Of a stretch of DNA of 64,000 nucleotides, positions 5,979-60,086 are shown in pieces (within the stretch, counting starts at the first letter, position 1; every line of letters begins with the position of its first letter). The translations under genes and the position numbers were made by a program. Below the pieces are notes generated by a model, which saw only the letters and a list, made by a program, of their open reading frames with translations, made no database searches and was not told the DNA's origin. Source of the DNA: Bacteroidetes bacterium RIFCSPLOWO2_12_FULL_37_12 (GTDB lineage Bacteria > Bacteroidota > Bacteroidia > 2-12-FULL-37-12); assembly GCA_001769655.1 (NCBI GenBank), contig MEPC01000023.1, positions 124,001-188,000 on the forward strand, given 5' to 3'.

Positions 5979-8900
5979 ATGTTCAACCCCCAAAACATCA
6001 AACATCTCACTTTCACCGGATTCATTTTCCTGCTCCCATTCACCACCCACGCCCAACTCATAGCCGACTTTTCTGCCGACACTTCCTACGGATGCTCTCC
6101 TTTGCTGATAAATTTTTCCGACAAATCCACTGGAATCCCGACTGCCTGGTTCTGGGATTTCGGTAATGGCAACACCTCCGTTCTCCAAAACCCAAGTACG
6201 GTTTACCTGAAACCCGGATTTTATACCGTGAAACTAATTGCCTCCAATGATACAATGAGTGACACTCTCATACGCAATGCTTTTATAATTGCTTATTCTC
6301 CTCCCACTTCCAATTTTTCTGCTACTCCACTAACAGGTTGCGCTCCCCTGCCGGTAACGTTCACTGACCGTTCCTCGCCTAATTCCAGCGCCATAGTGAC
6401 ATGGTACTGGGATTTTGGTGACGGTAATTATAGTAATGATAGAAACCCTAAGCATAGCTATACTACCGGCGGAAGTTTTACAGTGGCACTGATTACAACC
6501 GATGCCAATGGGTGCAATAATTATTTTTCTATCGGAAATTATGTAAAAGTTTATAAGCCCCATGCTGAAATATCATCTCCCGGTATTATTTGTGCCGACA
6601 ATAATACAGTGACACTAAATCAGAAATCAACAGGTGAAGAAATCACTTTTCGTTGGGATTTTGGAGATGCAAGTCCTGTTTCCACGCTACCTTTTCCGGA
6701 ACATACTTTCCCTTCACAGGGCTCGTATTCCATTTCACTTTTTATTTCCGATAAACTGAATTGTCGAGATTCGTCATTGAAAAATATTACCATCACCGAC
6801 TTTAATGCCGATTTCACTTACACCGTCAATTGTTTTGAGGATGAATATGACACGACTTTTCTTATGGATTTCAACGATATATCCTCTCCTTTACCTGTCG
6901 CCTGGCAGTGGGATTTCGGAGATGGGAAAAAAGCCGCTATTCAGAATGTGGACAATCTTTATATCCGCGATACCAGTTACGAAATTACATTGATTGCCCG
7001 TTCTTCTACCGGATGCAGTGACACGATGCGAAAAATATACAGTCCCCCCCGTGCTGTGTTTGAGCCCACTCCCGATTCTACTTGTTTTAATCCCGGATTG
7101 ATTGACTTTGAAAATTTTTCCACCGGCAGTGATTCCATTTATTTTAAATGGTTTATGGGAAACGGTGTTATCACAGATAGCATTCATCCTTCCATCTATT
7201 ATTCCATTCCCGACTCAATTTACGACCAACTATTTTATGTTCATTTAATTACTTACAATAAATTCGGTTGCAGTGACACTTCGAAAGATTCGGTATATGT
7301 TATCCGGAATATTCTTTCGTTAGTCACAGACCCTCCTAAAGGATGTACACCGCTTACCGTAGAGTTCAGTGACAGTGTTCGCTCCATCTCTCCAATTACA
7401 GAACGGATTTATGATTTCGGAGATGGCAGTGCCACTGTATCCGAACACAACCCAGTTCACACCTATAACACGACCGGCTATTATCCTGTAAAATTAATTA
7501 TAGAAAACGAAACGGGATGCCGCGACACGTTAGAATACAGATATATCCGTGCAGGCGCTTTGCCTTTGTCTGTTGATTTTGGAATCTTACCGAATGACAC
7601 TTTCTGTCATCATAACATATTACAATTTAATGATCTCTCAGTCGCTTCAGGAGCAGATTTCCCCATCAATGACTGGTGTTGGATTTTTCACTACGCAGGA
7701 GGCATGGGTCATCCGGATTCTTTAAATGACTCCGGATATGTTCCCCCTATTGTTATTTGCGAGGACTCCGGTTTTGTAGAAGTACACACCTCTGTCGCAA
7801 CTGTACAAAATCCACCCCATGATTTTGATGAATATGAATCGAATTGTTATTCATCGTTAGTTCCGGAAGATTCATTCAGTTGGGTAAAAAACACCGCTAT
7901 ATATGGATTGGATTCGGTCCTGCTTTATGCCGGTTACAATGGATGTTATGATTCAATTGTAAAGCCGGTTTTTGAGCATCCTCCTACCGCCGTTCCCGGT
8001 TATTATATTCCTGATGATAGCCGTTGTTATCTCTCTTCCTGCAGTCCTCCCGTGACATTTGGATTTTTTAATGGAAGCGTTGAATTTGATTCTACTGTTT
8101 ATTTTCGCATCAAACATAAAAAATCAGAAACGGAATATGATTTTGAATGGAATCTTGATTCGTTGGATGATCCATTGTTTCACGAAAGGGATTCTACAAC
8201 CACGCGTGACAGTGTAATGAAGAAAACATTTATCAATTTTACAAGAGCAGGGGAATATGAAATTTTTATTTCAGTTCATAATACAATAACCAATTGCACG
8301 GATATACGGAACCGCCTTATAACCATTGATAGTGTCACTACGGGTTTTACTATTGACCCTCCTTCAAGTTGCCTTAGCGAAAACCGTTTTACTTTTACCG
8401 ATACATCTAAAAGTTATTTTGGTAAAATTCATGCCATGACCTGGCTTTTCGGAGACGGTGACTCTGCCTCAACTATTGAAAGCAAATATGATCATGGATT
8501 GAATTGGACTGCTTACATGAAAACCTGTCCCGTTATACACGGTCCTACCGATAGCATTTTACCCAAACATGGATGGGGAGCCAATACTTCAGGTTTGTAT
8601 AAAAAACCTACTCATGTATATAAAGATACGGGTATGTTCATAGTACGTCTTATTCTTTCGGTAGAAGTTCCAAGCAGAATGAATAGCGCGAGTAAATTTG
8701 ATTATTATTATTGCAAGTATGAATTAGTTGATACCGTTTATTTGCGGGGCACAAAAGCCCGTTATGCCGTAAGTGACTCTACCCAGTGTCTTGATTATGA
8801 ATACCAGTTTACCGATATATCCTACAGTACAGGAAATATTATTTCTTATGATTGGGATTTTAATGATAACACTCCTCATGAAATCATACCAAACCCTAAG

Positions 8901-10763
8901 AAAGTATTTTCAAAACCTGGGTTGTATGATGTGACACTTCTCGTTACGGATGACTTGGGATGTACCGGCAGGTTGTGGAAAAATAATTATATTTATGTCA
9001 CTGATCCAATAGCGAAATTTACAGTGAAAGACACCGTTTGCAAAGAGGAAATTGTATTGTTTTCAAATTCATCATTAGGAGACAGTTTAAGTTTTAATTG
9101 GTTTTTCGGGGATGATTCTACAAGCAATAAAAGTTCTCCTCTTCATTCCTATTTGTTGCAGGGAAATTATGAGGTGGATTTGTTCATTAACGATATAAAT
9201 GGTTGCCGCGATTCTGTTACCGATAAAAAAATGGTTGTCCAGGAAAAACCATCTGCCAATTTCAAAGCAGATACTACTTCTGCTTTTTGTCCTCCTTTGA
9301 TTGTAAATTTTTTAAATCTTTCTACCGGAAACCCTGACAGTTATTTATGGGACTTTGGCGATAGTAGTACTTCAGATCTTGCTAATCCTGTAAAAACGTA
9401 TGGGAAATCAGGTAATTATGATGTGAAACTCATCGCTTATAATGTTGCCGGGTGTACAGACACATTTCTTATTCCGGGGTTTATCAAAATTTCAGGACCC
9501 TATGGAAATTTTTCAATAAACCCGGATACTATTTGTGCTCCGGACACTGTTTCCTTTATTGTAAATACTTCCAATGCCTATTATTATATCTGGGATTACG
9601 GTGACGGAAACACGTATTTAGCAGTTAATCCTTCGGATACTATTTTCAAACACCCTTACGACCGGAAAGGAAATTTTTATCCCGCCCTTGTTATAAAAAA
9701 CCTGATGGGTTGCAGTTTTGATATTAACAGTATAATTCCGGTTTATTCCATTGGTTTGAATGACACTTTTAAAATGGAAAACCGGTATTATTGCGGTAGT
9801 GACACTATTATGTTAATGTCACCCATTGATACATCTATAACCAATGTAATTTGGGATTTCGGAGATAACAAAACAGATACAAGCCGGCTCACTTCTCATG
9901 TTTATGATACTTCCGGAAATTATTTTATAAAACTAACACTGTTTGCCGGAGGGAAATGTATTTTTTCTCAAACCGATTCTCTCAAACTCAGAAAATCGCC
10001 GGACATTTTTATTTCCATAAATGCCGATTCTGTGGGGTGTGCTCCGGCTGATATTCAAACAACGGTATTAACCGATACCACCGGTAAAGGATTGAAGAAT
10101 TGGAATTGGTTTCTTGGTGATAGTACAAAGACAAACACTGAATACGAGCCGACTGTTTCTTTTGCTAATCCCGGAAAGTATTTAATTCAGCTAAACTACA
10201 GCTACGATGATGGGAATTGCAATGAAAAAATACCTTTTAATGTATCCGTTGAACAAAAACCTACTGTGGATTATAATTTTATTTTACCATTACCCTGTGA
10301 TGCAACATCGGGCGTACGGTTTTTAAATAAGAGCAACGATAGCACCATAAGTATTTGGGATTTTGGGGATGGAAATGTTTCAACAGATAGAAATCCTGTT
10401 CATGTTTTTGAGAATGATGGGGAGTACAATGTTAAACTGAGGGTATCAGATCTTGAAAATATTTGCATGGACTCAGTGACACAAACAATCCGTTTCACTT
10501 CCAAACCGGAAAATATAATCATTCCCAACGTTTTTACTCCAAATCCATCTTCGCCGGGAATCAATGATACTTATAAAATAAGCGGCTTGCCTCCGGGCTC
10601 TAAATTCAACGTATTTGACCGCTGGGGGGTAAAAATTTATCAATCGGATAATTATGCTAATGATTGGGATGGAAGGAACTTGAGCGGTGGGGTTTATTAT
10701 TATTTTTTGGAAATTTGCAATTCAGAAATTAAGAACGGGTGGATTTTTATTTTGAAGGAGTGA
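5979..10763 (+). CDS. giant PKD-repeat surface protein with gliding-motility/T9SS type B sorting domain
   Basis: 1594 residues. A signal peptide (FIFLLPFTTHAQ, cleavage near residue 26) is followed by about 14 PKD-like repeats recognisable by WDFGDGN or variants (for example FWDFGNGN, WYWDFGDGN, YIWDYGDGN, SIWDFGDGN). The last 85 or so residues start at IIPNVFTPN and contain FNVFDRWGVKIYQ and DWDGRN, the gliding-motility-associated C-terminal domain that directs export by T9SS. Such proteins are secreted adhesins or cell-surface scaffolds. A central block (about residues 530-780) has fewer PKD signatures and more Cys. The gene carries 8 of the 31 GTGWCAC words found in the window. A tandem array abuts the start codon. 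Ligand unknown. Confidence 0.93.
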   Translation: MFNPQNIKHLTFTGFIFLLPFTTHAQLIADFSADTSYGCSPLLINFSDKSTGIPTAWFWDFGNGNTSVLQNPSTVYLKPGFYTVKLIASNDTMSDTLIRNAFIIAYSPPTSNFSATPLTGCAPLPVTFTDRSSPNSSAIVTWYWDFGDGNYSNDRNPKHSYTTGGSFTVALITTDANGCNNYFSIGNYVKVYKPHAEISSPGIICADNNTVTLNQKSTGEEITFRWDFGDASPVSTLPFPEHTFPSQGSYSISLFISDKLNCRDSSLKNITITDFNADFTYTVNCFEDEYDTTFLMDFNDISSPLPVAWQWDFGDGKKAAIQNVDNLYIRDTSYEITLIARSSTGCSDTMRKIYSPPRAVFEPTPDSTCFNPGLIDFENFSTGSDSIYFKWFMGNGVITDSIHPSIYYSIPDSIYDQLFYVHLITYNKFGCSDTSKDSVYVIRNILSLVTDPPKGCTPLTVEFSDSVRSISPITERIYDFGDGSATVSEHNPVHTYNTTGYYPVKLIIENETGCRDTLEYRYIRAGALPLSVDFGILPNDTFCHHNILQFNDLSVASGADFPINDWCWIFHYAGGMGHPDSLNDSGYVPPIVICEDSGFVEVHTSVATVQNPPHDFDEYESNCYSSLVPEDSFSWVKNTAIYGLDSVLLYAGYNGCYDSIVKPVFEHPPTAVPGYYIPDDSRCYLSSCSPPVTFGFFNGSVEFDSTVYFRIKHKKSETEYDFEWNLDSLDDPLFHERDSTTTRDSVMKKTFINFTRAGEYEIFISVHNTITNCTDIRNRLITIDSVTTGFTIDPPSSCLSENRFTFTDTSKSYFGKIHAMTWLFGDGDSASTIESKYDHGLNWTAYMKTCPVIHGPTDSILPKHGWGANTSGLYKKPTHVYKDTGMFIVRLILSVEVPSRMNSASKFDYYYCKYELVDTVYLRGTKARYAVSDSTQCLDYEYQFTDISYSTGNIISYDWDFNDNTPHEIIPNPKKVFSKPGLYDVTLLVTDDLGCTGRLWKNNYIYVTDPIAKFTVKDTVCKEEIVLFSNSSLGDSLSFNWFFGDDSTSNKSSPLHSYLLQGNYEVDLFINDINGCRDSVTDKKMVVQEKPSANFKADTTSAFCPPLIVNFLNLSTGNPDSYLWDFGDSSTSDLANPVKTYGKSGNYDVKLIAYNVAGCTDTFLIPGFIKISGPYGNFSINPDTICAPDTVSFIVNTSNAYYYIWDYGDGNTYLAVNPSDTIFKHPYDRKGNFYPALVIKNLMGCSFDINSIIPVYSIGLNDTFKMENRYYCGSDTIMLMSPIDTSITNVIWDFGDNKTDTSRLTSHVYDTSGNYFIKLTLFAGGKCIFSQTDSLKLRKSPDIFISINADSVGCAPADIQTTVLTDTTGKGLKNWNWFLGDSTKTNTEYEPTVSFANPGKYLIQLNYSYDDGNCNEKIPFNVSVEQKPTVDYNFILPLPCDATSGVRFLNKSNDSTISIWDFGDGNVSTDRNPVHVFENDGEYNVKLRVSDLENICMDSVTQTIRFTSKPENIIIPNVFTPNPSSPGINDTYKISGLPPGSKFNVFDRWGVKIYQSDNYANDWDGRNLSGGVYYYFLEICNSEIKNGWIFILKE

Positions 10764-11533: not shown

Positions 11534-12982
11534 ATGAAATTTATCAAATCTTACCTGTTATTATTATTTATTTCATCTTCCGTTTATGCCCAATTCGGAG
11601 AATTAGTTCACCCTTATAACTTCAGCGCCACTTCGGTTTATTTTATCAATTCAAAAACCGGCTTTGTACTGGGAGATAGCGGCGTACTATTAAAAGTGAC
11701 ACAAGGAGGAACAAACATTCAAAAGCTCAATACCGGTACCATTAAACGGCTAAACAAATGTTTTTTTACCAATCCAAAAAACGGTTTCATCGCCGGAGAC
11801 AAAGGAATTCTTTTAACAAGCACCGACAGCGGAAATACCTGGAGCAACCGGATTATTTTCAATAATGTTAATTTGAATGATATTTTTTTTACCGACACAC
11901 AAAACGGATTTATTTGCGGAGATAATGGACTTTTTTTAAAAACCGTTAATGGTGGTTTTGATTGGGAATTTATTAATACCGGCATTGTATATTATCTGAC
12001 TTCCATTTTTTTTCTAAGCAGTGACACCGGTTTTGTTGCAGGAAGCAAAGGAACGTTTTACAAAACAACTCAGGGAGGAAATTCGTGGACAAACATTAAC
12101 CTGAATACATCAGAATTACTGACATCTATATTTTTTACAAAGAGCAAAGGATATGTTACCGGAATGTCTGGAGTATTATTGAAAACTACCGACCGGGGGC
12201 TTTCCTGGAGAAGTGATACGTTATTAATTAATGGCACTTTATATGATTTGGAATGTACTGATAATTATTGCTTTCTTGCTTCTCAGAATGGAAATATATT
12301 TTATAAAGAAAATGACGGACTATGGAAAAATGTGTCATTGAATATCACGGAGGATATTCTCTCTCTTGCTGTTCCTGATGTCTATGTTTGTTATTCGGTA
12401 AATACAAAAGGCAAACTATTTAAAACGTGTCCTAAGGCAACCATCCTTTTTTTACCATCTTCTACTCAGGCAAATACCTTCAATTTTAAAAATAACAGCA
12501 AGAATATTTCATCATTAAAATGGGATTTTGGAGATGGAACCACAAGTACGGATGACTCACCGGTTCACAATTTTTCAGGAAAAGGGATTTATCAGATAAA
12601 GTTAATAGTAGAAAATGAAACAGGATGCAAAGATTCAGCTTCAGTTACCGTTTCTGTGACTGATATTAACGAATCACTGTTTGGTAATAAATATTCAGTA
12701 GTAATTTTGCCTAATCCATCCAATGATTTTATCAAAATTCAAATCAACGGCGTGGATCAGCAGGAAATTCCCGGATTGAAAGTTGAAATAATTGATTTAA
12801 CAGGAATAAAAATAATTTTGCAAGGATATGATTATTCTTTTCATGAAACAAACGCTTTTCCAAATTCAAAAAAGGAATTGATAATTACACAGAATGTTTC
12901 CCAATTACCTTCGGGGATGTATATTGTCAAAGTGTTGTCTAAAGAAAAAATTGGATTCACGGGAAAGATTATTATATATTAA
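11534..12982 (+). CDS. secreted protein with YCF48/BNR-like repeats, PKD domain and T9SS type A sorting domain
   Basis: 482 residues with a signal peptide (YLLLLFISSSVYAQ). Residues about 30-290 contain repeated units ending in SGNTWSNR, GGFDWEF, GGNSWTNI and GLSWRS, the Asp-box/YCF48 (HCF136-like) beta-propeller pattern with recurring 'FFTDTQNGFICGDNG' type segments. One PKD domain follows (LKWDFGDGTTS, about residue 335). The last 80 residues (VVILPNPSNDFIKIQI through LPSGMYIVKVLS) are a T9SS type A sorting domain. Expected to be secreted and attached to the cell surface. Target unknown. Confidence 0.9.
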   Translation: MKFIKSYLLLLFISSSVYAQFGELVHPYNFSATSVYFINSKTGFVLGDSGVLLKVTQGGTNIQKLNTGTIKRLNKCFFTNPKNGFIAGDKGILLTSTDSGNTWSNRIIFNNVNLNDIFFTDTQNGFICGDNGLFLKTVNGGFDWEFINTGIVYYLTSIFFLSSDTGFVAGSKGTFYKTTQGGNSWTNINLNTSELLTSIFFTKSKGYVTGMSGVLLKTTDRGLSWRSDTLLINGTLYDLECTDNYCFLASQNGNIFYKENDGLWKNVSLNITEDILSLAVPDVYVCYSVNTKGKLFKTCPKATILFLPSSTQANTFNFKNNSKNISSLKWDFGDGTTSTDDSPVHNFSGKGIYQIKLIVENETGCKDSASVTVSVTDINESLFGNKYSVVILPNPSNDFIKIQINGVDQQEIPGLKVEIIDLTGIKIILQGYDYSFHETNAFPNSKKELIITQNVSQLPSGMYIVKVLSKEKIGFTGKIIIY

Positions 12983-14064: not shown

Positions 14065-14808
14065 GTGACAGATATTGAAAAAAATATTGACATCGTTTAC
14101 GAAGACAATCACCTTATTGTCATCAACAAAAGAACTGGGATCATAGTGCAGGAAGATGCTACGGGTGACAAACCCCTTGTAGAAATGGTTCGCGATTATA
14201 TCCGGGAAAAATATAAAAAGCCAGGCAATGTTTTCACCGGGCTGGTACACCGCATTGATCGTCCCGTCAGCGGATTAGTAATTTTTTCAAAAACATCCAA
14301 AGGTCTTGAGAGAATGACGGAATTATTTAAGAATAAAGAAATCAAAAAAATTTATTGGGCGGTTGTGAAAAATCTACCTGCAGAGCCAGTGGGTAAGTTG
14401 TGTCACTGGTTATTGAAAGACCGTGAAAACAATATAGTGACACTATTTAATGAACAAGTGTCATTGGCTTCGTATGCAGAACTATCCTATAGAGTTATTT
14501 ACAGTTTTTCGCCATATTATTTAATGGAGGTAAATCTTGTGACCGGAAAACCTCATCAGATACGTGCACAACTGGCATCCATTGGTTGTCCAATTCGCGG
14601 GGATAAAAAATACGGATTCTCATCGGCAAACCGCGATAAAAGCATAAACCTTCATGCCAAAAGGATTGAATTTATTCATCCGGTAAAAAAAACATCTATA
14701 GTGGTAGAAGCGCCATTACCCGATACTGATTTCTGGAGGCAGTTGAAGGAATTTGAGCAATTACAAAGCGCAAATCAACATGAAATTATGAAAGAAATCA
14801 CCACATGA
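14065..14808 (+). CDS. RluA-family RNA pseudouridine synthase
   Basis: 247 residues, starting at a GTG just after panB. It isomerises uridine to pseudouridine in rRNA or tRNA. The catalytic motif is HRIDRPVSG with D65; other family signatures are NKRTGI at the start, KIYWAVV, LVTGKPHQIRAQL and NLHAKRIEF. There is no N-terminal S4 domain, so it is the short form. Which RNA position it modifies cannot be told from sequence. The gene contains two GTGWCAC words (14400 and 14436). Confidence 0.92.
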   Translation: MTDIEKNIDIVYEDNHLIVINKRTGIIVQEDATGDKPLVEMVRDYIREKYKKPGNVFTGLVHRIDRPVSGLVIFSKTSKGLERMTELFKNKEIKKIYWAVVKNLPAEPVGKLCHWLLKDRENNIVTLFNEQVSLASYAELSYRVIYSFSPYYLMEVNLVTGKPHQIRAQLASIGCPIRGDKKYGFSSANRDKSINLHAKRIEFIHPVKKTSIVVEAPLPDTDFWRQLKEFEQLQSANQHEIMKEITT

Positions 14809-14810: not shown

Positions 14811-14935
14811 TTTACACCCTTATACCTTTATACCCTTATACCCTTATACCCTTATACCCTTATACCCCTATACCCTTATACCCTTATACCCTTATACCCT
14901 TATACCCCTATACCCCTATACCCCTATACCCCTAT
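14811..14935. repeat. 9-bp tandem array CCCTTATAC
   Basis: About 13-14 units of CCCTTATAC with CCCCTATAC variants, mostly at the right end. It fills the whole gap between the convergent stop codons of the pseudouridine synthase and the DUF5777 gene. Related arrays lie at 29797-29876 and 63317-63398. Confidence 0.85.
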
Positions 14936-14938
14936 GCC

Positions 14939-29796: not shown

Positions 29797-29876
29797 AAGG
29801 TATAGAGGTATAGACCCTATACCCCTTACCCCTATTCCCCTATACCCCTTATACCCCTATACCCCTCCCCAATACC
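29797..29876. repeat. 9-bp tandem array (TATACCCCT), overlapping the prmC 3' end
   Basis: TATAGAGG, TATAGACC and TATACCCCT/ATTCCCCT units between the convergent CoA-binding and prmC genes. The array runs into prmC, so its last residues (GRGIGV) are encoded by the repeat. Confidence 0.8.
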
Positions 29877-43781: not shown

Positions 43782-45869
43782 TTATTTTTTATTTCCCGAC
43801 GAAACCCTCACATTATTTGCCTTATCAAAAAACAGCGAAGCATTTACTTTGTCTTCTTTGATGGAATACAATAACCCTAAATTGTAATAGGAATCAGCAT
43901 TTTTTGGGTCAAGGTAGGTGGCATCTTTGAATGACTTTATAGCGAGGTCAATTTTTTTATCATAAGCATACGTTAATCCCAGATTATAATATGCGTTTAC
44001 GTAAGTTGGATCCGAATCAATAGTTCTTCTAAAATTCTGAGCCGCCAATTTAAAGTTATTATCTTTTAAATGCACCATGGCGAGCTTAAAATATATAAGC
44101 GGATTTTTAACTCCTGAGCGAATCATCTTGCTATACACTTCTATGGCTTGGTCAGTTAATTGGGTTGTCTCATAAACATCGCCTAACAACCATAAAGCAT
44201 TTGTATCTTTTGGATTATCTTTGAGAATGGTCTTATAAATTTTTATCGCGGCGCCGTACTCATCTACTTTTGAATAATTTTGAGCCAAATGAAACCGGGC
44301 TGTGAGATTTTTTTTATCTATTGCCAATGCTTCCTTGAAAACTTTAATTGCCTTTTTATGCTCTCCAACATTTTCGTATCCCATAGCCAGTTCATTATTT
44401 AATTCTGCCAGAACATTTATTTTGTCATTTGTTGGCTTTGATTTTCCTTTTTTCTTAGATACATCGTTCTTTTGTTTTTCATCCGTTTCTTTCAATACTG
44501 CGAGTCGGTCCACCTTTTCCTTCAACCGTTTTAAATCAAATTCTGCACTTCTTAATTTATCTTCTGTTGCCGCAATCTCACGGCGCAATAAAAATTGTTC
44601 ATCAATTTTCAGGTTTGACACTTTCACTTTCACTTCAGTGGAAGGGGGAATGAAAGAATCATTTACGGCAAGTTTAGGATTGAAAGCAGAGCGCTGATTT
44701 TTAGGTAATATTTTGGGATTCTTATTAGCAGGATTTATCTTATTTTTTGATTTTAAAGCAAGTCGTAATGAGTCAGGATTCGGAACACGTTTTTTTTTGG
44801 CTAAATTTTTGGGTACAATGGGCTTTGGAGGAAGCGTTTTTTTGGGTGAGATTGGTTTTTTTATTGGTACAACCGGTTTGTTAACTGTTAGGATTTTTTC
44901 AGGTGTTGTTGTTACTTTTTCTTCCACCACCGCAGGTTTTTTTCCGCGGTTCAACCATGCATTGATTTCGTCTGATCCGATGTTGCTTTTCTTATCCATC
45001 AATGCATAATTTTTTGCAGGGACCTCTTTTTTAATTACGTTTTTTTTGTTTTTAGTGATTTTATTGGTTGCTTTTTCATTTTCAGGGGGTGGAATATTTT
45101 TATTAGCAGTTTCCGCCGCAAGTTTGGACTCATTTTTTTTGAAAGTGCCCGGAATTGTTGATGAAAGTATTGGTTTTGATGTAATGAATGAATTATCATT
45201 CATAGTTCTTTTTTCAACAGAAATTACGTTGGGTTTTTCCTTTAATTCCTTTTCGGTTACATCCACCGAAATAGTATCTACTCTTAATGTTTTACCATTA
45301 GTTGATGATAGAACTTTTTCAATTTTTGTAATCGTTTTTATTTCTTTAACGGTGGTAATTTCAGTAACAATTCTGGTTTCGGCTGGTACCGTTTTTTCAT
45401 TAGTTTTCGCTGGTTTTATAACAAATTCTTCCTTTGATTTTGGAGAAGTAACTGGGAAACTTTCTTCTTGTTGTTTTGAAATAGTGGGTGAAATTGTGTC
45501 ACTGAAAGAGGTTGTAAATGATGTTTTTTTCAATGGAAGAGAATCAGGTTGATAAACCAGGACAGTATCGCTAAAATCTTCATTTTTACTGGAAATAAAT
45601 GGAGCATAGTGTTGCTCGATGGTTTTAAGTTTTATAGGTATTAATGAATCAGAAGGTATTTGAGCAAGAGAACTAATTTTTTTTGATGCAACGATGATGA
45701 CAGAATAAGGCACATAATTCTTTTTTGATAAGAATTTATTGATGTCATTAATATCATAATTTGACTGCTGAACAAGGGGAGATGCCTTTTTGGGTGTTTT
45801 TTGTGCCAGCGTGTAATGATTGACAACCAGCATGAAAAACAAAACCAATATGAGGGTAAATGATTTCAT
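43782..45869 (-). CDS. secreted tetratricopeptide repeat protein with Pro/Lys-rich spacer
   Basis: 695 residues. Signal peptide (LILVLFFMLVVNHYTLAQ). Residues about 70-420 are low complexity and rich in Lys, Pro, Thr and Val (VEEKVTTTPEKIL, PIKKPISPKKTLPPKP); such stretches are thought to span the periplasm. Then a coiled-coil segment (SAEFDLKRLKEKVDRLAVLKE) and about six TPR units (HKKAIKVFKEALAIDKKNLTARFHLAQNYSKVDEYGAAIKIYKTILK, YVNAYYNLGLTYAYDKKIDLAIKSFKDATYLDP). Probably a scaffold in the periplasm or envelope. It converges on the previous TPR gene with only 7 bases between stop codons. Confidence 0.85.
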   Translation of the reverse strand: MKSFTLILVLFFMLVVNHYTLAQKTPKKASPLVQQSNYDINDINKFLSKKNYVPYSVIIVASKKISSLAQIPSDSLIPIKLKTIEQHYAPFISSKNEDFSDTVLVYQPDSLPLKKTSFTTSFSDTISPTISKQQEESFPVTSPKSKEEFVIKPAKTNEKTVPAETRIVTEITTVKEIKTITKIEKVLSSTNGKTLRVDTISVDVTEKELKEKPNVISVEKRTMNDNSFITSKPILSSTIPGTFKKNESKLAAETANKNIPPPENEKATNKITKNKKNVIKKEVPAKNYALMDKKSNIGSDEINAWLNRGKKPAVVEEKVTTTPEKILTVNKPVVPIKKPISPKKTLPPKPIVPKNLAKKKRVPNPDSLRLALKSKNKINPANKNPKILPKNQRSAFNPKLAVNDSFIPPSTEVKVKVSNLKIDEQFLLRREIAATEDKLRSAEFDLKRLKEKVDRLAVLKETDEKQKNDVSKKKGKSKPTNDKINVLAELNNELAMGYENVGEHKKAIKVFKEALAIDKKNLTARFHLAQNYSKVDEYGAAIKIYKTILKDNPKDTNALWLLGDVYETTQLTDQAIEVYSKMIRSGVKNPLIYFKLAMVHLKDNNFKLAAQNFRRTIDSDPTYVNAYYNLGLTYAYDKKIDLAIKSFKDATYLDPKNADSYYNLGLLYSIKEDKVNASLFFDKANNVRVSSGNKK

Positions 45870-46037: not shown

Positions 46038-49000
46038 ATGTTTTTTATATTTATTTTTCTGTTTTGTGTCACTACGCTACAAGGGCAAGAGATGGGTTCC
46101 TCAAACTTTAATCCTCTTACTCCTCCAAATACTTACAGAAATCCCGACAATCCCTATTACTGGAAAAACAAAATGCCATTCGCAGGTTATTGGCAACAGG
46201 ATGTGCATTATAGAATTAAGGCGGAATTGGATGATTCTTCTGACAAGGTAAGTGGGACTCTGGAATTAAGTTATTGGAACAATTCTCCCGATACGTTGAA
46301 TGTTTTATATTTTCATCTGTACCAGAATGCATTTCAACCTGAATCCTACTTAGATAAATTAAACCTTGAAAATAAAAATCAGCCCGTTTATGGAAGAAAC
46401 GGAAGGAAAAAGCTTGGTTCTATTGCTGAAAATATCAAAGTGAATGATCAGCCCGTTGAAACATTCTTAGATAACACTATTCTGCAGGTAAAGTTGAAAA
46501 ATCCTGTACTGCCGGGAGCTAAAACAGAAATCAGTTTAAATTTTAAAACCTATTTTGACCAGGGAGGAGTGCGCAGAAGAATGAAAATGTTTAATCGTTG
46601 GGGTGTAAATCATTACGATGGAGTACATTGGTATCCGCGGATTTGCGTCTATGACCGGAAATTCGGTTGGGAAACCGACCAGCATCTCGGTAAAGAATTT
46701 TATGGTGACTTCGGATGTTATGATGTGGAATTAACATTGCCGCAACAATATGTTCTCGATGCCACCGGAGAGTTGCAGAACCGTACACAGGTTTTACCTG
46801 ATGAACTCAGAAAGAAATTAGATGTTTCTAATTTTAAAGATAAAAAGCTGGGTTCCAAACCATCTGTAATTACTCCTTACGAAAAAGGAAAATTCAAGAC
46901 ATGGATTTATCACGCAGAAAATGTGCATGACTTTGCATGGACCGCCGATCCAACCTATCGCATAGGGGAAGCAGAATGGAATGGAATAAAATGTATTGCA
47001 TTGGCACAGGAACCCAATGCCTCCAAATGGCAGGAGTCGGCTAAATATACAGCATGGATTATAAAAACATACTCCGAAGATTTTGGAATGTATGCGTATC
47101 ATAAAATGATAGTAGCCGATGCACAAGACGGCATGGAGTATCCCATGCTTACATTAGATGGAGGGTTTTATCCCCAGCATCAGGGCTTGCTTGCGCATGA
47201 AGTCGGGCATAACTGGTTTTTTGGGATGGTAGGAAATAATGAAACGTATCGTGCCATGCTCGATGAGGGCTTCACACAATTTTTAACTTCATGGTGTATG
47301 TCGAAATCCTATATTAAAAACAAAAAAGATGTAATTTCTGAAAGGGATGAGGATCTGCCGGAAGTCAAAAACAAGGAGTTGCAAAAAGATACGTTAAGTG
47401 ATAAAGATATAGATGAAAAAGTCCGGTTTGAAAGGATCTATAATCCGTATCTGTCCTCTGTAATTGAAAGGTATGATGAACCATTAAACACACATTCCGA
47501 TGCATTTAACGGTGCCACCGGTCATGATGGCGGTTATCGGCTGGTATATTATAAAACAGCCACCATGTTGTACAATCTCCGCTATGTGTTAGGGGATGAA
47601 TTATTTCTAAAAGCGATGAAAGATTATTTTAATACCTGGAAAATTGCTCATCCTTATCCGGAGGATTTCAGAAATTCCATCATTCACAGTACGGGAGTGG
47701 ACCTTAACTGGTTTTTTGACCAATGGATCGAAACCACAAAATATATTGACTATGGAATAAAAAATTATCACAAGACCGGAAATCCCGGGGAGTATGAAAT
47801 TATTTTCAAAAGAAAAGGAAGAATGCAAATGCCCATTGATTTTAGTGTCACTGATAAGAAAGGAAAAGTTCATAATTATCATATTCCAAATACATGGTTT
47901 GTAAAAAAATCCAACGATCCCAATACAACCGTTCTTCCCAAATGGTTTGGCTGGGACCGTTTGAATCCGGTTCATAGCGCCACTGTTACTATCCCTGACG
48001 GAATACAAAACATTGAAATTGACAGGGAACATTTTTTAGCAGACATAGACCGGAGAGACAACACCTGGCTTGATGCATACAAACGAAAATGGGATTTGAA
48101 AAAATTCGAACCGCCTGACTGGCTTCATAAGAGGAGAAATTACCGGCCCGAACTCTGGTATAATGCCATAGACGGCTTACAACCAGGAATCCATGTAAAT
48201 GGAAATTATTTTGAGGAGTATTCGAATGTTTCAATGACACTCTGGTATAACAGTAATATCTTAAACCGGAAAATCCAGGAAGAGTTGAAAAACAATAAAG
48301 AAATATTTTCTTATAATTTTCACTTCAGAACCCATCTGAATCAATACTGGAAAAATTCCTCAGTGACACTTCAGTCATCTTCTTATTCGGAACTTATTAA
48401 AAACAGTGTAAAATTAGAAAAAAAGTTCACTTCACAGGATTCATGGGATGAAAATAATCATTTAATTTATCTTCAGCTAAAAAGTATGTATAAACCAAAC
48501 CGCGAAGGGCTGGAATATTTAGTATATAGTGACACGCTACTTAAAAGAGATTTCTGGACAACGGAGGTATTTAACAATAGTGTCAATATAGGGTGGATTA
48601 AAAGTTATAGCCGGATTAAAAATAGCGGATCATGGAATTTTTCTTTGCGCCTACCCGGATTTATATTCACAGAGAAATCGGAGTCATATTCCTGGATAAA
48701 TATGAGTCAGATAAACACATCCAAGTTGGGAGATTTTGAGTTGCGTTCCAGGTTTTTTGCACAATATGGAGCGGGAATATTTCCAGGGGAGTCAAAACTT
48801 TTTATAGCCGGAGCCAATCCGGAAGATTTATCTGAAAACAAATATACCCGTGCACGCGGTTTTTTCCCGGATGAATGGGCGGAATATGGAGCCGGTACCA
48901 ATCATTTTCAGATGGGTGGAGGATTAAATTTACGCGGGTACGCAGGGTATGTTGCGCCTCAGGAAGGAACCAACGAGGAAATTATTTTTACCTATCAGGG

Positions 49001-51065: not shown

Positions 51066-53489
51066 TTAAATTTTCCCTTTCCACGCCCCATAGCCCACCC
51101 ACCCGCAAAACACCAATAAAATCAATGAACAAGCTAAGGAGATCCTTTCGCCGGTAAAATAGATTGAGGGGTGAAATTTAAATTCAATTACGTGCTCCCC
51201 CGCAGGAACTTTCATACCTCTCAATATATAATTTACCCGAATGTGTTCTGCCGGTTTTTCATCTACAGAAACATTCCAACCTTCAGGATAGTAAATCTCA
51301 GAAAAAACTGCAAAAGATTCAACTGAGGTCTTACAGATATATTTTAAATGATTGGGTTTATAATTGGTTAAACGTATATAGTCAGAACTGTCATTTTGTG
51401 CAGTGCCATTGAAATCAATTCTAAATCTGGAAGTATCTACAATGGCTGTGAGAGTAGGTTCAAAATCAATCAGTGCATCAATTTCCATATCGGCGCTACT
51501 AACTTTTTTGATGTTTTGTACAAACCAGCAGTTTCCCAGCGCTGTCGGATTAATTTTTACCGGCATGTTTTCATCTCCAGTGATTACCCAACGGGTATTC
51601 AACATATTAATGACACGATGATTATTCTTACTGATATGATTTTCAATCAGGTCCTGGTAACGGCGCATTTTGGCTCCGTGATAACCGCCAATTGATTTGT
51701 GAAAATAAGAAGTACGGGCATCGTTGAAAGGATTTTTTAGATTCAGCACGCGGTAAGAAAGTGTAGTGTCACGCAAAATCATCTGGTCAGCCAGGGTAGG
51801 TCTGAAATAATTCTCAGAAAGATTTTTCTGATAATTATCATCGCTGATAAAGCGGTTGTTTACAAACCAAATATCCGCTATTATACAGAGGAGAATTAGA
51901 TTCAGTGCAATATTTCTTTTTAACTTATTATAAATAAATGCCAAAATAATTAGGGAGGTTATTACGATATAAAACAAGGTCCTGAGAACATCGTTCCTGA
52001 ATAAAGCCACCCGGGTATCTTCCAAACTCGTCAAAAAACCATTTATTTCGTTTTGCGGAAACTGGTTAGACAAAAGCAATTGCGTAAGTTCTTCTGTTTC
52101 CCCTTCTTTAAAAAAATTATTGAATGTGCTTGGCAGTAGATAAAAAATAATACAAAGTCCACCGGTAAGAACAAATGATTTAAAAATATTCTTCTTTGTG
52201 ATGCTGGCAAGATTATCTTCAAAAAATATTTTTTGCAGAGCAAGGAATGCTAAAAAAGGAAATGTAAACTGAGCAATAAATAGTGACATCACAACCGCTC
52301 TGAATTTGTTATACCCTGGTAAATACTGAAACACAAAATCGTTCAGCATCGGAAAATGTTTGCCCCAGGAAAGAAGGATTGATATAATGGAAACAATTAG
52401 TAAAAACCATTTTATCGCTCCCTTGATTTCAAACAAACCAAGTACAAAAAGAAAACAAACAATAGCCCCCAGATAAACCGGACCGCTGGTAAAGGGCAAA
52501 TCTCCCCAATAAGAATCCATTTGTCCAATGATGTTCTTATAATCCACTTTGAGATTCTTAAAAAATGATTTATGCTCCTGAATGCGACTGCTTGCTCCCC
52601 CTTTAAAATTAGGTATCATCAAGGAAAATGTTTCAGAAATTCCCCCACTCCATGCAAAGGCGTAGTCATGGTCAAGCCCCGATGATTCCACCTTTAGATT
52701 TTTGTTGATTTCTGTTTTCCCACGAATGGTAAACTTTGAATAAGAAGAAGTGGTGAGAAGATTTCCGGCGCTGGTTCCTGACGCAATAATTGCGCCCAGT
52801 AAAAGGAATAAAGAAGTTGTAATAAACGGCTTTAACTTTTTATCCTTTATAAATAAAAAACCATAAATACCCATTTGAATTAATACCATCAGTAATAAAT
52901 AATAAGTAATTTGAAGGTGATTAACTGCTAATTCCAATGCCAGTCCACAAGCAGTAAGACAAACACCTCTGGTACGATTCTTATAAAATGCGTAGTGTAT
53001 GCCCCCGGTGACAAGGGGAATTAATGCAACTGCCAACACTTGTGAATTATGACCTGCTTCGAGATAGATAAGGAGATTTGTAGAAAAGGCAAACGCAAAA
53101 GCCCCAAGCCCTGAAATAATGGGTTTGCATCCGAAAACGCTCATCATTAAGTAAAAACTTACAAGACCTATGAAAATGATACCACTAGGTTCAGGAAAAA
53201 TAGAACGTACCCCGACCAGCATTTTTAAAAAAAAGTTCGATGGGTAAAGTGTGGAAATCTGATAAGCCGGCATCCCGCTAAACATTGAATTTGTCCATAA
53301 GGGTTCTTCCCCGAATTTAACTCTGAAATCCTTAATCTCTTTCGACATACCCAATGATTGGAGGATATCATTTTGAATAAGTTGTTTATGCTCTATAAAG
53401 AGGGGTTTGAAAAAAAGAAACAACAGCAATACAAAACTTGCGATAATGACAAGGTTAGTAATAATCTTTTTGCGATAAAATTGATTCAT
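51066..53489 (-). CDS. YfhO family membrane protein
   Basis: 807 residues with about 12-14 hydrophobic helices (LVIIASFVLLLFLFFKPLFI at the start, IIFIGLVSFYLMMSVFG, LGAFAFAFSTNLLIYLEAGHN, SLILLVFCGWVGYGAWK at the end). The layout and PLWTNSMFSGMPAYQISTLYP match YfhO, a polytopic protein thought to modify envelope polymers with sugars; a large soluble loop near the C-terminus (about residues 560-720) is normal for the family. In Gram-positive bacteria YfhO glycosylates lipoteichoic acid; the target in Bacteroidota is not known. It is directly followed by upp. Confidence 0.92.
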   Translation of the reverse strand: MNQFYRKKIITNLVIIASFVLLLFLFFKPLFIEHKQLIQNDILQSLGMSKEIKDFRVKFGEEPLWTNSMFSGMPAYQISTLYPSNFFLKMLVGVRSIFPEPSGIIFIGLVSFYLMMSVFGCKPIISGLGAFAFAFSTNLLIYLEAGHNSQVLAVALIPLVTGGIHYAFYKNRTRGVCLTACGLALELAVNHLQITYYLLLMVLIQMGIYGFLFIKDKKLKPFITTSLFLLLGAIIASGTSAGNLLTTSSYSKFTIRGKTEINKNLKVESSGLDHDYAFAWSGGISETFSLMIPNFKGGASSRIQEHKSFFKNLKVDYKNIIGQMDSYWGDLPFTSGPVYLGAIVCFLFVLGLFEIKGAIKWFLLIVSIISILLSWGKHFPMLNDFVFQYLPGYNKFRAVVMSLFIAQFTFPFLAFLALQKIFFEDNLASITKKNIFKSFVLTGGLCIIFYLLPSTFNNFFKEGETEELTQLLLSNQFPQNEINGFLTSLEDTRVALFRNDVLRTLFYIVITSLIILAFIYNKLKRNIALNLILLCIIADIWFVNNRFISDDNYQKNLSENYFRPTLADQMILRDTTLSYRVLNLKNPFNDARTSYFHKSIGGYHGAKMRRYQDLIENHISKNNHRVINMLNTRWVITGDENMPVKINPTALGNCWFVQNIKKVSSADMEIDALIDFEPTLTAIVDTSRFRIDFNGTAQNDSSDYIRLTNYKPNHLKYICKTSVESFAVFSEIYYPEGWNVSVDEKPAEHIRVNYILRGMKVPAGEHVIEFKFHPSIYFTGERISLACSLILLVFCGWVGYGAWKGKI

Positions 53490-54527: not shown

Positions 54528-55496
54528 ATGTCCATACTCGTTTATGCTGAAAATACCGATGGATTTTTTAAGAAGTCCACGCTGGAGTCGCTTACGTACG
54601 CCGTAGATCTTTCTAAAAAAGGAAATGAAAGTGTCACAGCATTATGTACAGGAAATATATCCGCTGAAAATTTAAAGACACTTGGTGAATATGGTACCAG
54701 CAAAGTGCTTTATTGCAAAGATGAGCGATTGAATTCAAAACCGGTAGTGCCGTTAGTCAATCTCTTGGAAAAAGCGGCTATAGAAGAAAAAAGTTCTGTG
54801 ATAATTTTTTCGCATACTTCGACGGGCGCCGGTATTGCTCCACGGCTGGCAGTAAAATTAAAAGCAGGGGTTGCAAGTAACGTAATTTCTTTACCTGACT
54901 CAGCAGAAGAATTTAGTGTAATAAGAGGTGTTTATTCCGGCAAAGGATTCTCTCGATTAAAGTTAACAGGACCGGTTAAAATTCTTACGATAAAGGGTAA
55001 TTCACATGAAGTTAAAAAATCACCGGTGGATTGTTCTATTGTAGATTTTAATCCTTCACTCGATAGCAATGATTTCTCGGTGAAAGTGAAAGAATTAGTA
55101 AAAACAAGTGGAAAAGTGTCACTGAAAGAAGCGGATGTAGTTGTCTCCGGCGGAAGAGGAATGAAAGGACCCGAAAATTGGCAAATTATTGAAGAATTAG
55201 CGGGATTACTAAAAGCGGCAACATCCTGTTCGAAGCCGGTCGCGGATATGGGATGGAGACCTCACTCCGAGCACGTCGGGCAAACGGGTATTACGGTAGG
55301 TCCAAATTTATACATTGCTATAGGTATTTCCGGCGCCATTCAGCATCTTGCGGGCGTAAATTCTTCAAAAACGATAGTGGTAATAAACAAAGACCCGGAA
55401 GCGCCTTTCTTTAAAGCGGCTGACTTTGGAATTGTGGGAGATGCTTTTGAGGTTGTACCGCGATTGATTAAAGCGTTGAAGGAAAGGAAGAATTAG
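54528..55496 (+). CDS. etfA: electron transfer flavoprotein alpha subunit
   Basis: 322 residues. The C-terminal FAD domain is clear: VVSGGRGMKGPENWQIIEELA, KPVADMGWRPHSEHVGQTG, and NLYIAIGISGAIQHLAG, followed by KTIVVINKDPEAPFF. The N-terminal half pairs with EtfB (MSILVYAENTDGFF, IFSHTSTGAGIAPRLAVKL). Two GTGWCAC words are in the gene (54631 and 55115). It is downstream of etfB and upstream of a nuclease and NupC gene. Confidence 0.97.
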   Translation: MSILVYAENTDGFFKKSTLESLTYAVDLSKKGNESVTALCTGNISAENLKTLGEYGTSKVLYCKDERLNSKPVVPLVNLLEKAAIEEKSSVIIFSHTSTGAGIAPRLAVKLKAGVASNVISLPDSAEEFSVIRGVYSGKGFSRLKLTGPVKILTIKGNSHEVKKSPVDCSIVDFNPSLDSNDFSVKVKELVKTSGKVSLKEADVVVSGGRGMKGPENWQIIEELAGLLKAATSCSKPVADMGWRPHSEHVGQTGITVGPNLYIAIGISGAIQHLAGVNSSKTIVVINKDPEAPFFKAADFGIVGDAFEVVPRLIKALKERKN

Positions 55497-56267: not shown

Positions 56268-56343
56268 GATGGAATAGTTATACAGTGGTAATACCGTGGT
56301 ACTACAATCGTATTACAATAATTTTATAATAACCCCCAAAAAA

Positions 56344-57693: not shown

Positions 57694-57741
57694 TTTTCAG
57701 GGGTACTAAGGCACTTCTAAAAATTCAACCAAATGTCTCCC

Positions 57742-59421
57742 TTAAATCAATCTCCTTCTCATCAATTTTTCCAACAAGTTATGTAGTGGAAAAATTACAG
57801 ATGCCACTAGTGCATTTATAAGTAATTTGTACAAAGGTTCTCCACCTGTCAGCGATTCTATAAAAGGGTCCATCCAGACAAGAATAAATTCAAACAACAG
57901 CAGAAAAACAAAAAAGATCAGCCCTTCAGCTACCCGTAGAGGGATGTGTAATTTTCCGGAAAATAAAATTCCTGCAAATATGAACACCAGAAAAATCAGA
58001 ATACCTGAATATTGCAAAGTATTCCTCCTGCTGACTTCCGCTATTTTCTGTCTTCTACTGGTTTCATCCTGCTGAATTCGTTTCACCTCTGCCAGTTCAT
58101 ATTCGTGTTTAGCTTGTAATTTTCCGATTTCTTTACTTTTTTCTTCGCTGAAAAGCGAGTCCCTTGTTTGTGAATATAATTTAAAATAAAGATAGGCATC
58201 TTTGTAATTGCTGATTTCTTTTTCTAAATCGGACAATCCGCTGTAATCGTCACGTAAAAATTCCATGCTTCCGGTTTCAATGGCAAGTTCACGACCTTTC
58301 TGAAGAAAGTTCCTAGCTTCGGAATATTTTACCTGTCTGGTTTTAGCATCCGGCAGATTCCTGATTTGTGAGGCAAGAATACTTCCGATATTACTGTATG
58401 TATTAGCTATACCTGTTTTGTCTCCTATCTCTTGTCGGATTTCCAATGCGTGATGATAATTTTTCAAAGCTTCTGAGTGGTTTTTCAGGTCTCTGTAAAT
58501 GAGACCAATATTATTATATGTATTGGCGGTACCTTTTTTTTCACCCATTTCTTCACTTATCTTTAAAGATAATCCGTAATTTTTCAACGCTTCTGTATAG
58601 TTGCTTTTGTTCCAATAAATAAGTCCGATGTTATTCAGGGTATTTGAATATAAATTTCCGTTTTTCTGACCTGTTTCTTCGTATAATTTTAATGTGATGA
58701 GATAATTTTTCAGCGCATCATCAATATTTCCCTGACTCCAGTAAATGCCGCCAATATTATTGTGTGAGGATGCGATACCTTGCCGGTCGTTTAGTTCTTC
58801 AAAGTTCTTTAGTGCCATAAAATAATACTTTAATGCTTCTGGGTAATTTCCCTGACTCCAGTAAATAATTCCAATATTACCATACGTGTTGGAAGTATTT
58901 TTTTTATCCTTCAGTTCTGTAAAGAATTTGAGAGCGGTTTTATAATTTTTAAGTGCCACCGGAAAGTTCCCCAAATCTTTATTAATGTTTCCGATATTGT
59001 TATAGGAGGTAGCAATACCTGCTTTGTCTCCGATTAATTGACGAATGTTTAATGCTTTCTTACTATGAACGAGCGCTTTCCCATAATCACCTTTATTGTA
59101 GAATAAACTGGCATTGGTATGGTGTAGATTTGCTTCTCCCTTTTTGAAATTTATTTTTTTTGTGAGTGAGAATCCCTTTTCAATATAATTCCCGGCTTCT
59201 CCGGATTGTACGATTCGAAAATGCCAGGCGATTGCATTGAGGTGGTTTACTTTGTTGGTATCCTCTTTATCGGATTTGAGAAGGGAGAGGAGGGAATCGA
59301 TTTTTTGGAGTTGGCAATAGGCGGTAGGGAGGGGGAAGTTGGTAAAAACGAGAAAAAAATAAAATGTTGAAATGGAAAAAACTTTTTTAGAAAGTTGTGG
59401 TTTATACGTATAGTTGAGCAT
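57742..59421 (-). CDS. TPR protein with C-terminal membrane segment
   Basis: 559 residues. Signal or anchor at the N-terminus (FSISTFYFFLVFTNFPLP). About eight TPR units of 40 residues each (YNNIGNINKDLGNFPVALKN, SHNNIGGIYWSQGNIDDALKN, YNNIGLIYRDLKNHSEALKN), then a coiled coil (LQAKHEYELAEVKRIQQDE) and three hydrophobic helices (YSGILIFLVFIFAGILFSG, FFVFLLLFEFILVW). Related Bacteroidota proteins end in a histidine kinase, LuxR or cyclase domain; here only the membrane piece is present. The role may be as a partner or sensor. A -7 box overlaps the start. Confidence 0.85.
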   Translation of the reverse strand: MLNYTYKPQLSKKVFSISTFYFFLVFTNFPLPTAYCQLQKIDSLLSLLKSDKEDTNKVNHLNAIAWHFRIVQSGEAGNYIEKGFSLTKKINFKKGEANLHHTNASLFYNKGDYGKALVHSKKALNIRQLIGDKAGIATSYNNIGNINKDLGNFPVALKNYKTALKFFTELKDKKNTSNTYGNIGIIYWSQGNYPEALKYYFMALKNFEELNDRQGIASSHNNIGGIYWSQGNIDDALKNYLITLKLYEETGQKNGNLYSNTLNNIGLIYWNKSNYTEALKNYGLSLKISEEMGEKKGTANTYNNIGLIYRDLKNHSEALKNYHHALEIRQEIGDKTGIANTYSNIGSILASQIRNLPDAKTRQVKYSEARNFLQKGRELAIETGSMEFLRDDYSGLSDLEKEISNYKDAYLYFKLYSQTRDSLFSEEKSKEIGKLQAKHEYELAEVKRIQQDETSRRQKIAEVSRRNTLQYSGILIFLVFIFAGILFSGKLHIPLRVAEGLIFFVFLLLFEFILVWMDPFIESLTGGEPLYKLLINALVASVIFPLHNLLEKLMRRRLI

Positions 59422-59426
59422 AATTA

Positions 59427-59434
59427 CAAAAATA
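59427..59434 (-). promoter_or_regulatory. -7 promoter box next to the TPR gene start
   Basis: On the minus strand TATTTTTG matches TAnnTTTG and ends 5 bases before the ATG at 59421, so the transcript may be leaderless. Confidence 0.45.
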
Positions 59435-59471
59435 CGAATTATATATAAACTTCAAATTTGCACCCTACGTC

Positions 59472-60086
59472 CTAAATATATTTACCCTCGAGAACTCCCA
59501 ACATCTTCCCGACAAAACCAACCGCCTTGTCCGGCACCTCTTCGTATTCCTCCAGTTTAATTTTTATTGATAATTTTAAGAACCCTGCCTTTTCAATCTG
59601 CTTAAAAACAAATTCCGGATTTAATGACTCCAATAATTTGTAATTATTCTCACCAAAATGATGCTCCCACGGACTTTCATTCACACAGAAATAAATACCT
59701 GTGCCACTCAACATGGAATAGTTTTTTTTAAAACAGATTTGAAATTTTTTCATCCACTCTCCGCTCATCAGGAAAGTGCAGGAAAAACATTCACCCCACC
59801 AGAACATAGTCCGGAATGCAAAAATATCTTTTTGTGTGAAAAAAGCCGGATAATCGAGCATAAACCACGGAAGCATGTTGTAATTTTCACCTTTTGATAT
59901 TTTACCTTTTTTACGATGACATTCTTCCGGAAAAGGAAAACCGGAGGATGAAATATATTCACTTATCTTACGTTGTGTCACTTCCAACAATGCGATTAAT
60001 TTTTCGTTTACGGCACGTTTAGTATAGAAAAAGTCCTTATCAGAAAGTACCTCAAATTCGTGTTTGCTAAAATAGTTTTTTTCCAT
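59472..60086 (-). CDS. hypothetical protein
   Basis: 204 residues, no signal peptide or membrane helix, and I do not recognise the family. It is aromatic-rich in the middle (NMLPWFMLDYPAFF, FAFRTMFWWGECFSC, CVNESPWEHHFGENNYKLL), which may be a folded binding domain. It stands alone on the minus strand, diverging from the LptF/G gene across hairpin element C. One GTGWCAC word lies inside (59975). Confidence 0.75.
   Translation of the reverse strand: MEKNYFSKHEFEVLSDKDFFYTKRAVNEKLIALLEVTQRKISEYISSSGFPFPEECHRKKGKISKGENYNMLPWFMLDYPAFFTQKDIFAFRTMFWWGECFSCTFLMSGEWMKKFQICFKKNYSMLSGTGIYFCVNESPWEHHFGENNYKLLESLNPEFVFKQIEKAGFLKLSIKIKLEEYEEVPDKAVGFVGKMLGVLEGKYI

Follow-up and report, generated by a model that had tools for sequence, protein, structure and literature searches.

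Why one short palindrome should recur so often, and nearly always inside genes, is the question raised by a 64,000-nucleotide stretch of the genome of Bacteroidetes bacterium RIFCSPLOWO2_12_FULL_37_12 (assembly GCA_001769655.1, contig MEPC01000023.1, positions 124,001 to 188,000), hereafter the window. A first-pass annotation had singled out the word AGTGWCACT (W, A or T) with its core GTGWCAC, and had proposed a palindrome resembling HIP1 (GCGATCGC), the highly iterated palindrome (HIP) of cyanobacteria, a methylation site, or a binding site for a chromosome-organising or DNA-uptake protein. The word is here shown to be AGTGNCACT, with the core GTGNCAC and a free centre, and there is hardly room for doubt that the element is real and genome-wide. 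It is a lineage-specific highly iterated palindrome and behaves like a HIP, its excess being private to one lineage as far as sampled.

Recounting recovered all 15 AGTGWCACT sites at the coordinates given earlier and all 31 GTGWCAC cores, one of which had been misplaced (46066 instead of 46076), and every one of the 31 lies in a predicted open reading frame (ORF). The annotation had expected about 0.5 and 5 copies; dinucleotide-preserving shuffles of the window give still lower values, 0.13 for AGTGWCACT and 2.4 for GTGWCAC, and the excess stands, as none of 100 shuffles reached either observed count. The 15 sites are indeed read nine times as Ser-(Asp/Val)-Thr and six times as Val-(Thr/Ser)-Leu, and protein sequence is insufficient to account for them: when synonymous codons were shuffled within each gene, which is the codon-preserving null used throughout, the 48 genes of the window yielded 0.53 AGTGWCACT against 15 observed and 3.6 GTGWCAC against 31. 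Repeat proteins do not hold all of the excess either, since 10 AGTGWCACT against 0.41 expected are left without the PKD gene. The centre had been drawn too narrowly, as the window contains 11 GTGSCAC (S, G or C), two of them full AGTGSCACT (6482 and 7428). Over 813,922 bases, AGTGWCACT reaches 71x and AGTGSCACT 43x the order-2 Markov expectation, and a centre restricted to W was rejected in favour of any base. No flank conservation is seen, the columns on either side carrying 0.12 bit or less, and AGTGNCACT therefore does not belong to a longer repeat.

The genome of the window (3.94 Mb in 43 contigs, in which domain searches found type IX secretion domains, indicative of Bacteroidota) holds 943 copies of AGTGNCACT, i.e. 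240 per Mb, against 38 of the reversed word; for AGTGWCACT the numbers are 590 and 21. Genome-wide counts use this reversed-word control, and the codon-preserving control covers the sampled 31% of the genome: a first sample of 813,922 bases, composed of the window and 40 further stretches (41 in all, 592 genes), and a hold-out sample of 400 kb of fresh stretches, for which predictions were written before the sequences were read. In the coding DNA of the first sample, 241 AGTGNCACT were counted against 13.1 expected and 697 GTGNCAC against 111 (the shuffles being random, expectations vary slightly, within 12-15 and 108-116); in the hold-out, 108 against 4.8 and 325 against 44. Counts thus exceed codon-preserving shuffles in the sampled part of the genome as they do in the window. 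Over an order-2 Markov model, AGTGNCACT is enriched 56x in the first sample. The core, with 702 copies in the 813,922 bases (863 per Mb, one per 1.16 kb), stands 6.0x over codon shuffles, the next value being 1.65x among the 62 such 7-base palindromes with an expectation of at least 30. Its ratio is homogeneous over the 41 stretches (chi2 47.6, 40 degrees of freedom, p 0.19), evidence against a function confined to one part of the chromosome (positions relative to origin and terminus were not mapped). Elements such as parS and matS have few sites in one chromosome region, a pattern at odds with 943 copies at an even ratio.

Giant Ser/Thr-rich repeat proteins are richest in sites, up to 14 per gene, and the ratio is somewhat higher in genes of at least 1000 amino acids (121 AGTGNCACT against 5.6 under codon shuffles) than in smaller ones (120 against 7.5), as would be expected if the word were an artefact of such proteins or of codon usage. 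Shuffles within the same genes leave the excess in place, however, and the richness of the repeat proteins comes mainly from more available places. In genes below 1000 amino acids, the two main frames are equally enriched (frame 0, 61 against 3.5, 17x; frame 2, 55 against 3.1, 18x; frame 1 has 4 against 0.8, 5x), which is not what a codon effect would produce. Of 684 occurrences of Ser-[VADG]-Thr, 147 use AGT GNC ACT, 21.5% where 0.9% is expected. At the amino-acid level, S[VADG]T, T[VADG]S and T[VADG]T stand at 1.85x, 1.38x and 1.87x of composition, with no clear drive on protein sequence. Under the same null the core shows no excess in two other genomes (observed and expected 55 and 54 in G008, 45 and 52 in G056) or in 80 pooled loci (157 and 165). 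Codon-shuffle excess, codon choice and genomes without excess led us to reject the artefact, which is scarcely credible.

Related genomes show no such enrichment: among 729 other Bacteroidota genomes the highest AGTGNCACT counts are 92 and 81, the nearest relatives among the genomes drawn belonging to the same class only. The 92 copies, against 15 of the reversed control, belong to a genome of the same phylum (G517). The 80 named loci, nearly all labelled Bacteroidota and amounting to 1.48 Mb, have no excess (13 AGTGNCACT against 11, 161 GTGNCAC against 188), and the codon-preserving null for the 9-mer gives, observed and expected, 3 and 1.5 in G008, 4 and 2.0 in G056, and 13 and 9.3 in the pooled loci. 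A second palindrome, TCACNGTGA, was hinted at by control counts in the genus g9 and was attributed to composition after codon shuffling (16 against 11 in G008). Within the collection of papers searched, none contained GTGNCAC, AGTGNCACT or GTGNNCAC; the strings AGTGWCACT, GTGWCAC, AGTGACACT or AGTGTCACT did appear in some papers, those listed being unrelated by title.

The specificity of the word is graded. In the first sample the full word stands at 18x, words changed at position 1 at 5-7x, at position 2 at 1.3-3.6x and at positions 3-4 at 0.4-1.8x; the hold-out gives 22x, 6.7-9.1x, 1.5-3.7x and 0.0-1.6x. Counted on the coding strand, variants of the left half and of the right half have similar ratios at positions 1 and 2 and scatter at positions 3-4, where counts are small. 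Changes in the two halves are thus about equal in cost, which suggests symmetric recognition of the duplex. Neither AGTGCACT nor AGTGNNCACT is enriched over codon shuffles in the first sample, and with a spacer of 4-5 bases the excess over the Markov expectation is weak at best (1.5-2.4x). In the hold-out, the ratios of the full word, of its core, of AGNCT and of the word lacking both ends, together with the ranking of the variants, agreed closely with the written forecasts or were somewhat stronger.

If only the exact word were favoured, neighbours at every position would be expected near 1 under a reversible balance of mutation and selection. This is the pattern of words which the genome avoids, and restriction sites would be expected to be avoided or neutral and hard-edged. 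In the 450 of 592 genes with a guanine-cytosine (GC) content of at least 34%, exact AGNCT stands at 0.05 and its one-off neighbours at 0.78-1.07, exact GGCC at 0.10 and its neighbours at 0.76-1.33; with CTAG and GCWGC included, exact words range over 0.05-0.15 and neighbours over 0.72-1.33. AGTGNCACT, in contrast, is in excess and soft-edged, which points more to a protein binding through additive contacts than to an enzyme of all-or-none action.

The avoided words deserve a description of their own. Coding DNA is almost devoid of AGNCT, with 94 against 1490 in the first sample and 13 against 739 in the hold-out, and the word is avoided between genes as well (32 against 126, 2 against 55); the window has 10 against 142, the first at 81 and four in its AT-rich first 4.8 kb. 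AGNCT shares with AGTGNCACT the AG...CT ends and the free centre, possibly by coincidence. Observed and expected counts in the sample of this genome are 98 and 907 for GGCC, 134 and 892 for CTAG, 77 and 608 for GCWGC, and 0 and 36 for GTCGAC; GTATAC, CATATG, ATCGAT and CAGCTG are likewise strongly avoided. A mild excess is seen for CCGG (1.7x), GGCGCC (2.0x), GCSGC (1.7-2.0x) and ACCGGT (2.2x), which resemble the alternate HIPs of Elhai.

Of the 244 full sites in the first sample, 241 fall within ORFs, the calling cut-off of 100 amino acids meaning that some small genes are counted as intergenic. Intergenic cores number 7 against 4.9 (1.4x) in the first sample and 5 against 2.1 (2.4x) in the hold-out, compared with 697 against 58.6 and 325 against 28.6 (11-12x) in coding DNA under a null of the same kind. 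AT-rich genes are less enriched (first sample). The core excess is present from the very start of genes (first 60 bases, 20 against 3.3; weaker in the last 60, 8 against 2.6) and small between genes, and a transcript-level or gene-expression function, whether as an RNA motif or an intragenic element, would explain this genic bias. The near symmetry of the half-sites and the independence of frame speak against it, and a 9-base palindrome with a single-base centre should be incapable of forming a hairpin; such a function is improbable.

How sites arise was addressed with 622 pairs of aligned Ser-[VADG]-Thr, taken from protein alignments of repeats and paralogues that are blind to DNA (the pairs are not mutually independent). 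Both members carry the site in 42 pairs, where independence would give 25, one does in 167 and neither in 413, so that most gains and losses happened separately in each copy, with a share due to common descent or constraint. Retention came out higher when pairs were found from DNA (at 60-70% identity, 72 of 141 against 14 of 306), a figure biased by alignment seeding and by counting pairs both ways. In the restriction-modification set, which comprises 18 loci, some overlapping, with 55 distinct ORFs and takes in adjoining host genes, the core shows no excess (5 against 4.2), yet AGNCT is avoided (14 against 124), from which accumulation of sites seems slow, on small numbers.

Mostly independent gain, confinement to one lineage among those sampled and the lack of core enrichment in restriction-modification loci, though the 9-mer there reaches 2 against 0.36, would also suit a self-recognition word for DNA uptake or recombination, driven into conserved genes in the manner of the DNA uptake sequence (DUS), the uptake signal sequence (USS) or chi. 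DUS and USS are of similar length, have hundreds of copies and lie inside genes too, all of which they share with AGTGNCACT, and in Campylobacter uptake reportedly involves a methylated palindrome, RAATTY. The known DUS, USS and chi words are nevertheless non-palindromic, and DUS and USS are read in a single orientation, whereas AGTGNCACT is palindromic, with changes to its halves about equal in cost; it also has little intergenic core excess, 1.4x and 2.4x beside 11-12x in coding DNA. An uptake or recombination word is accordingly an unlikely account.

A methylation site, one of the original proposals, gains no support from any methyltransferase found. As a rival it would hold that a methyltransferase acts on GTGNCAC or part of it, and that methylation-directed repair or another methylation-dependent process creates and keeps the sites, a mechanism already put forward for the HIPs of cyanobacteria. 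Its appeal lies in the density of the core, one per 1.16 kb, which matches that of HIP1 in Synechocystis 6803 (one per 1131 bp; PMC6604393), in a pattern lax at the ends and strict at the centre that resembles HIP1 (PMC4390886), and in the many methyltransferases of this genome. Pfam searches identified five families of them, and the genome is rich in type II restriction-modification systems (loci L025-L043, L144-L148 and L189-L196). Besides large N6 enzymes and an HsdM-like protein, 13 distinct small methyltransferase loci are present. Against the rival, nine of these 13 have a restriction partner, identified by Pfam as HindIII, EcoO109I-like, BanI, MjaI, MvaI/BcnI and SacI-like, with three more by PADLOC profile. 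No partner was identified for the other four, and on their account the rival is kept: L030 adjoins a convergent unidentified ORF, L031 has a DUF6996/6997 neighbour, the C12 locus has a 483-residue neighbour without a match, and the C33 locus a 496-residue neighbour that was not searched.

No orphan methyltransferase fitting AGTGNCACT was found, L030 being the one partnerless locus that was followed and the large N6 enzymes not having been taken individually. As an orphan it is not supported, because its homologues, 83% and 90% identical, lie in genomes with only 7 AGTGNCACT each (G116 and G188). L025 has homologues at 68-90% identity in 7 of the 197 further genomes of its class that were searched, and a PADLOC profile identifies the gene beside it as a type II restriction enzyme. 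Biased repair of the Dcm/Vsr type was also rejected: the genome has no Vsr homologue, and the three position-4 neighbours are alike (0.4-0.6), the C-to-T neighbour at the inner C not being raised (0.5x). Elhai noted HIP1-rich genomes without a CGATCG enzyme (PMC4390886), and these provide a precedent for a HIP without an enzyme for the outer word. Overall, a link to methylation is doubtful, ranking second among the explanations and somewhat ahead of uptake or recombination, with a transcript-level function and then the artefact far behind.

Our first choice, tentatively held, is a predicted dimeric DNA-binding protein that reads AGTGNCACT; of the original candidates it fits the soft-edged specificity best. 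A symmetric, sequence-specific protein, probably a homodimer and not an enzyme, would read the sites as double-stranded DNA, and its occupancy of gene bodies may be weakly beneficial, for example to nucleoid or chromosome organisation. Point substitutions would make the sites, with synonymous positions favoured, leading to a core about every 1.2 kb, and the little intergenic excess might reflect the disturbance of promoters by bound protein. More tentative still is the wider proposal that such a protein marks gene bodies chromosome-wide through a synonymous-site palindrome, a putative gene-body nucleoid code and a HIP without a methyltransferase.

Several points weigh against the binding protein. 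No such protein was identified, and no search by family was made; most nucleoid proteins have lower sequence specificity. Confinement to genes is not absolute, with intergenic 9-mers at 3 against 0.37 and 1 against 0.15 and those of the restriction-modification loci, cited above, all tiny numbers. Two forecasts missed: genes below 33% GC in the hold-out had 6 against 1.4 where a ratio below 3 was forecast, and the intergenic cores (5 against 2.1) had been forecast at 1-1.5. Spacing, close to random given opportunity, offers no clear indication that even coverage is selected. Core gaps of at least 3 kb are fewer than expected (42 against 55, z -2.8) and the coefficient of variation of core gaps is above the null (z +3.8); the 9-mer shows neither. 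Finally, HIP1, which is linked to methyltransferases, itself deviates most at its end positions (PMC4390886), so that soft edges support a binding protein without proving it or excluding a methylation link.

As a description, the original comparison with HIP1 holds well: both are dispersed palindromes, that of this genome mostly genic and spread by substitutions, with a core per 1.1-1.2 kb (about 1.16 kb here) and with the ends most variable (PMC6604393, PMC4390886). AGTGNCACT differs in its odd length, free centre, different word, G or C at 4 of 8 fixed bases, Bacteroidota host and the lack of a matching methyltransferase among those found. It is strongly biased to coding DNA, a statement made for AGTGNCACT alone and not as a comparison with HIP1. 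HIP density is put at about 500-2500 per Mb (PMC4390886), a range that includes the core at 863 per Mb and lies above the full 9-mer at 240 per Mb. Like a HIP, AGTGNCACT/GTGNCAC is a singularly over-represented palindrome and arises by substitution, its flanks not being conserved and its occurrence in aligned pairs mostly independent. The alternate HIPs (GGCGCC, GCSGC, rCCGGy and GGGATCCC; Elhai 2015) are similarly sporadic, each a different word in rare genomes, but they are GC-rich, at least 75% by Elhai's description, and accompanied by a predicted methyltransferase for the word (PMC4390886); G or C fills 4 of 8 fixed bases of AGTGNCACT and 4 of 6 in the core.

Two systems outside the HIPs offer partial parallels. 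The EbfC/YbaB nucleoid protein of Borrelia reads GTnAC genome-wide (PMC9610160), which like AGTGNCACT is a short odd palindrome with a free centre; the word is different, and GTNAC is not enriched here (2366 against 2256 under codon shuffles). An 18-nt palindrome of Caldithrix abyssi is also genome-wide, its role described as unknown, but it is longer, has few copies (38 exact cores) and prefers intergenic DNA (PMC5317091). The articles cited tie HIPs to cyanobacteria and methyltransferases. A strong, coding-biased HIP in Bacteroidota without an evident orphan methyltransferase adds a second case, independent of the first, in which methylation and protein binding can be told apart, and comparing soft and hard edges within one genome may help in distinguishing words that are bound from words that are restricted.

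Table 1. Sites of the palindrome and its core in the window, all located by sequence count.
Feature	Position	Strand	Remark
AGTGACACT site	6258..6266	.	Ser-Asp-Thr frame, PKD gene
AGTGGCACT site	6482..6490	.	S centre, absent from first-pass annotation
AGTGACACT site	6608..6616	.	Val-Thr-Leu frame
GTGACAC core	7018..7024	.	without both A/T ends
AGTGACACT site	7272..7280	.	
AGTGCCACT site	7428..7436	.	S centre, absent from first-pass annotation
AGTGTCACT site	8331..8339	.	
GTGACAC core	8931..8937	.	
AGTGACACT site	9798..9806	.	
GTGACAC core	10476..10482	.	
GTGACAC core	11696..11702	.	
GTGACAC core	12021..12027	.	
GTGTCAC core	14400..14406	.	
AGTGACACT site	14436..14444	.	
AGTGACACT site	24327..24335	.	
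AGTGACACT site	25102..25110	.	
GTGACAC core	31977..31983	.	overlaps possible GTG start
GTGGCAC core	33336..33342	.	
AGTGTCACT site	33686..33694	.	urocanase gene
GTGACAC core	34041..34047	.	
GTGGCAC core	35203..35209	.	
AGTGACACT site	37825..37833	.	
GTGCCAC core	37982..37988	.	
GTGGCAC core	39494..39500	.	
AGTGTCACT site	39554..39562	.	
GTGCCAC core	40205..40211	.	
GTGACAC core	41107..41113	.	
GTGACAC core	42332..42338	.	
AGTGACACT site	42512..42520	.	
GTGTCAC core	45496..45502	.	
GTGTCAC core	46066..46072	.	46076 in first-pass annotation
GTGCCAC core	47512..47518	.	
AGTGTCACT site	47844..47852	.	
AGTGACACT site	48362..48370	.	
GTGACAC core	48529..48535	.	
GTGTCAC core	51766..51772	.	
GTGTCAC core	54631..54637	.	
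AGTGTCACT site	55115..55123	.	
GTGCCAC core	58953..58959	.	
GTGCCAC core	59701..59707	.	
GTGTCAC core	59975..59981	.	
GTGGCAC core	61173..61179	.	

Other features of the window and of the sampled stretches were recorded alongside. The block at 64-4757 is AT-rich (28% GC over the first 4 kb), contains no AGTGNCACT and is likely a newcomer; one of its ORFs gave matches to an nSTAND3 NTPase and to a bacterial sugar transferase, another a match to ORC-CDC6-like. Units of 7-8 bases such as TATACCCC/GGGTATAG are repeated in tandem at 14812-14940, 29815-29866 and 63339-63383 and in many stretches. The words GGTATAGGG/CCCTATACC lie wholly outside predicted ORFs in 83 of 100 cases in the first sample. 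A dispersed intergenic hairpin with a consensus near GTAGAGACACGGTGCRCCGTGTCTCTAC is found at 62141, at L005:19201, L050:1330 and L058:3756, and at other positions; whole or half, it accounts by eye for 18 of 20 intergenic CACNGTG.

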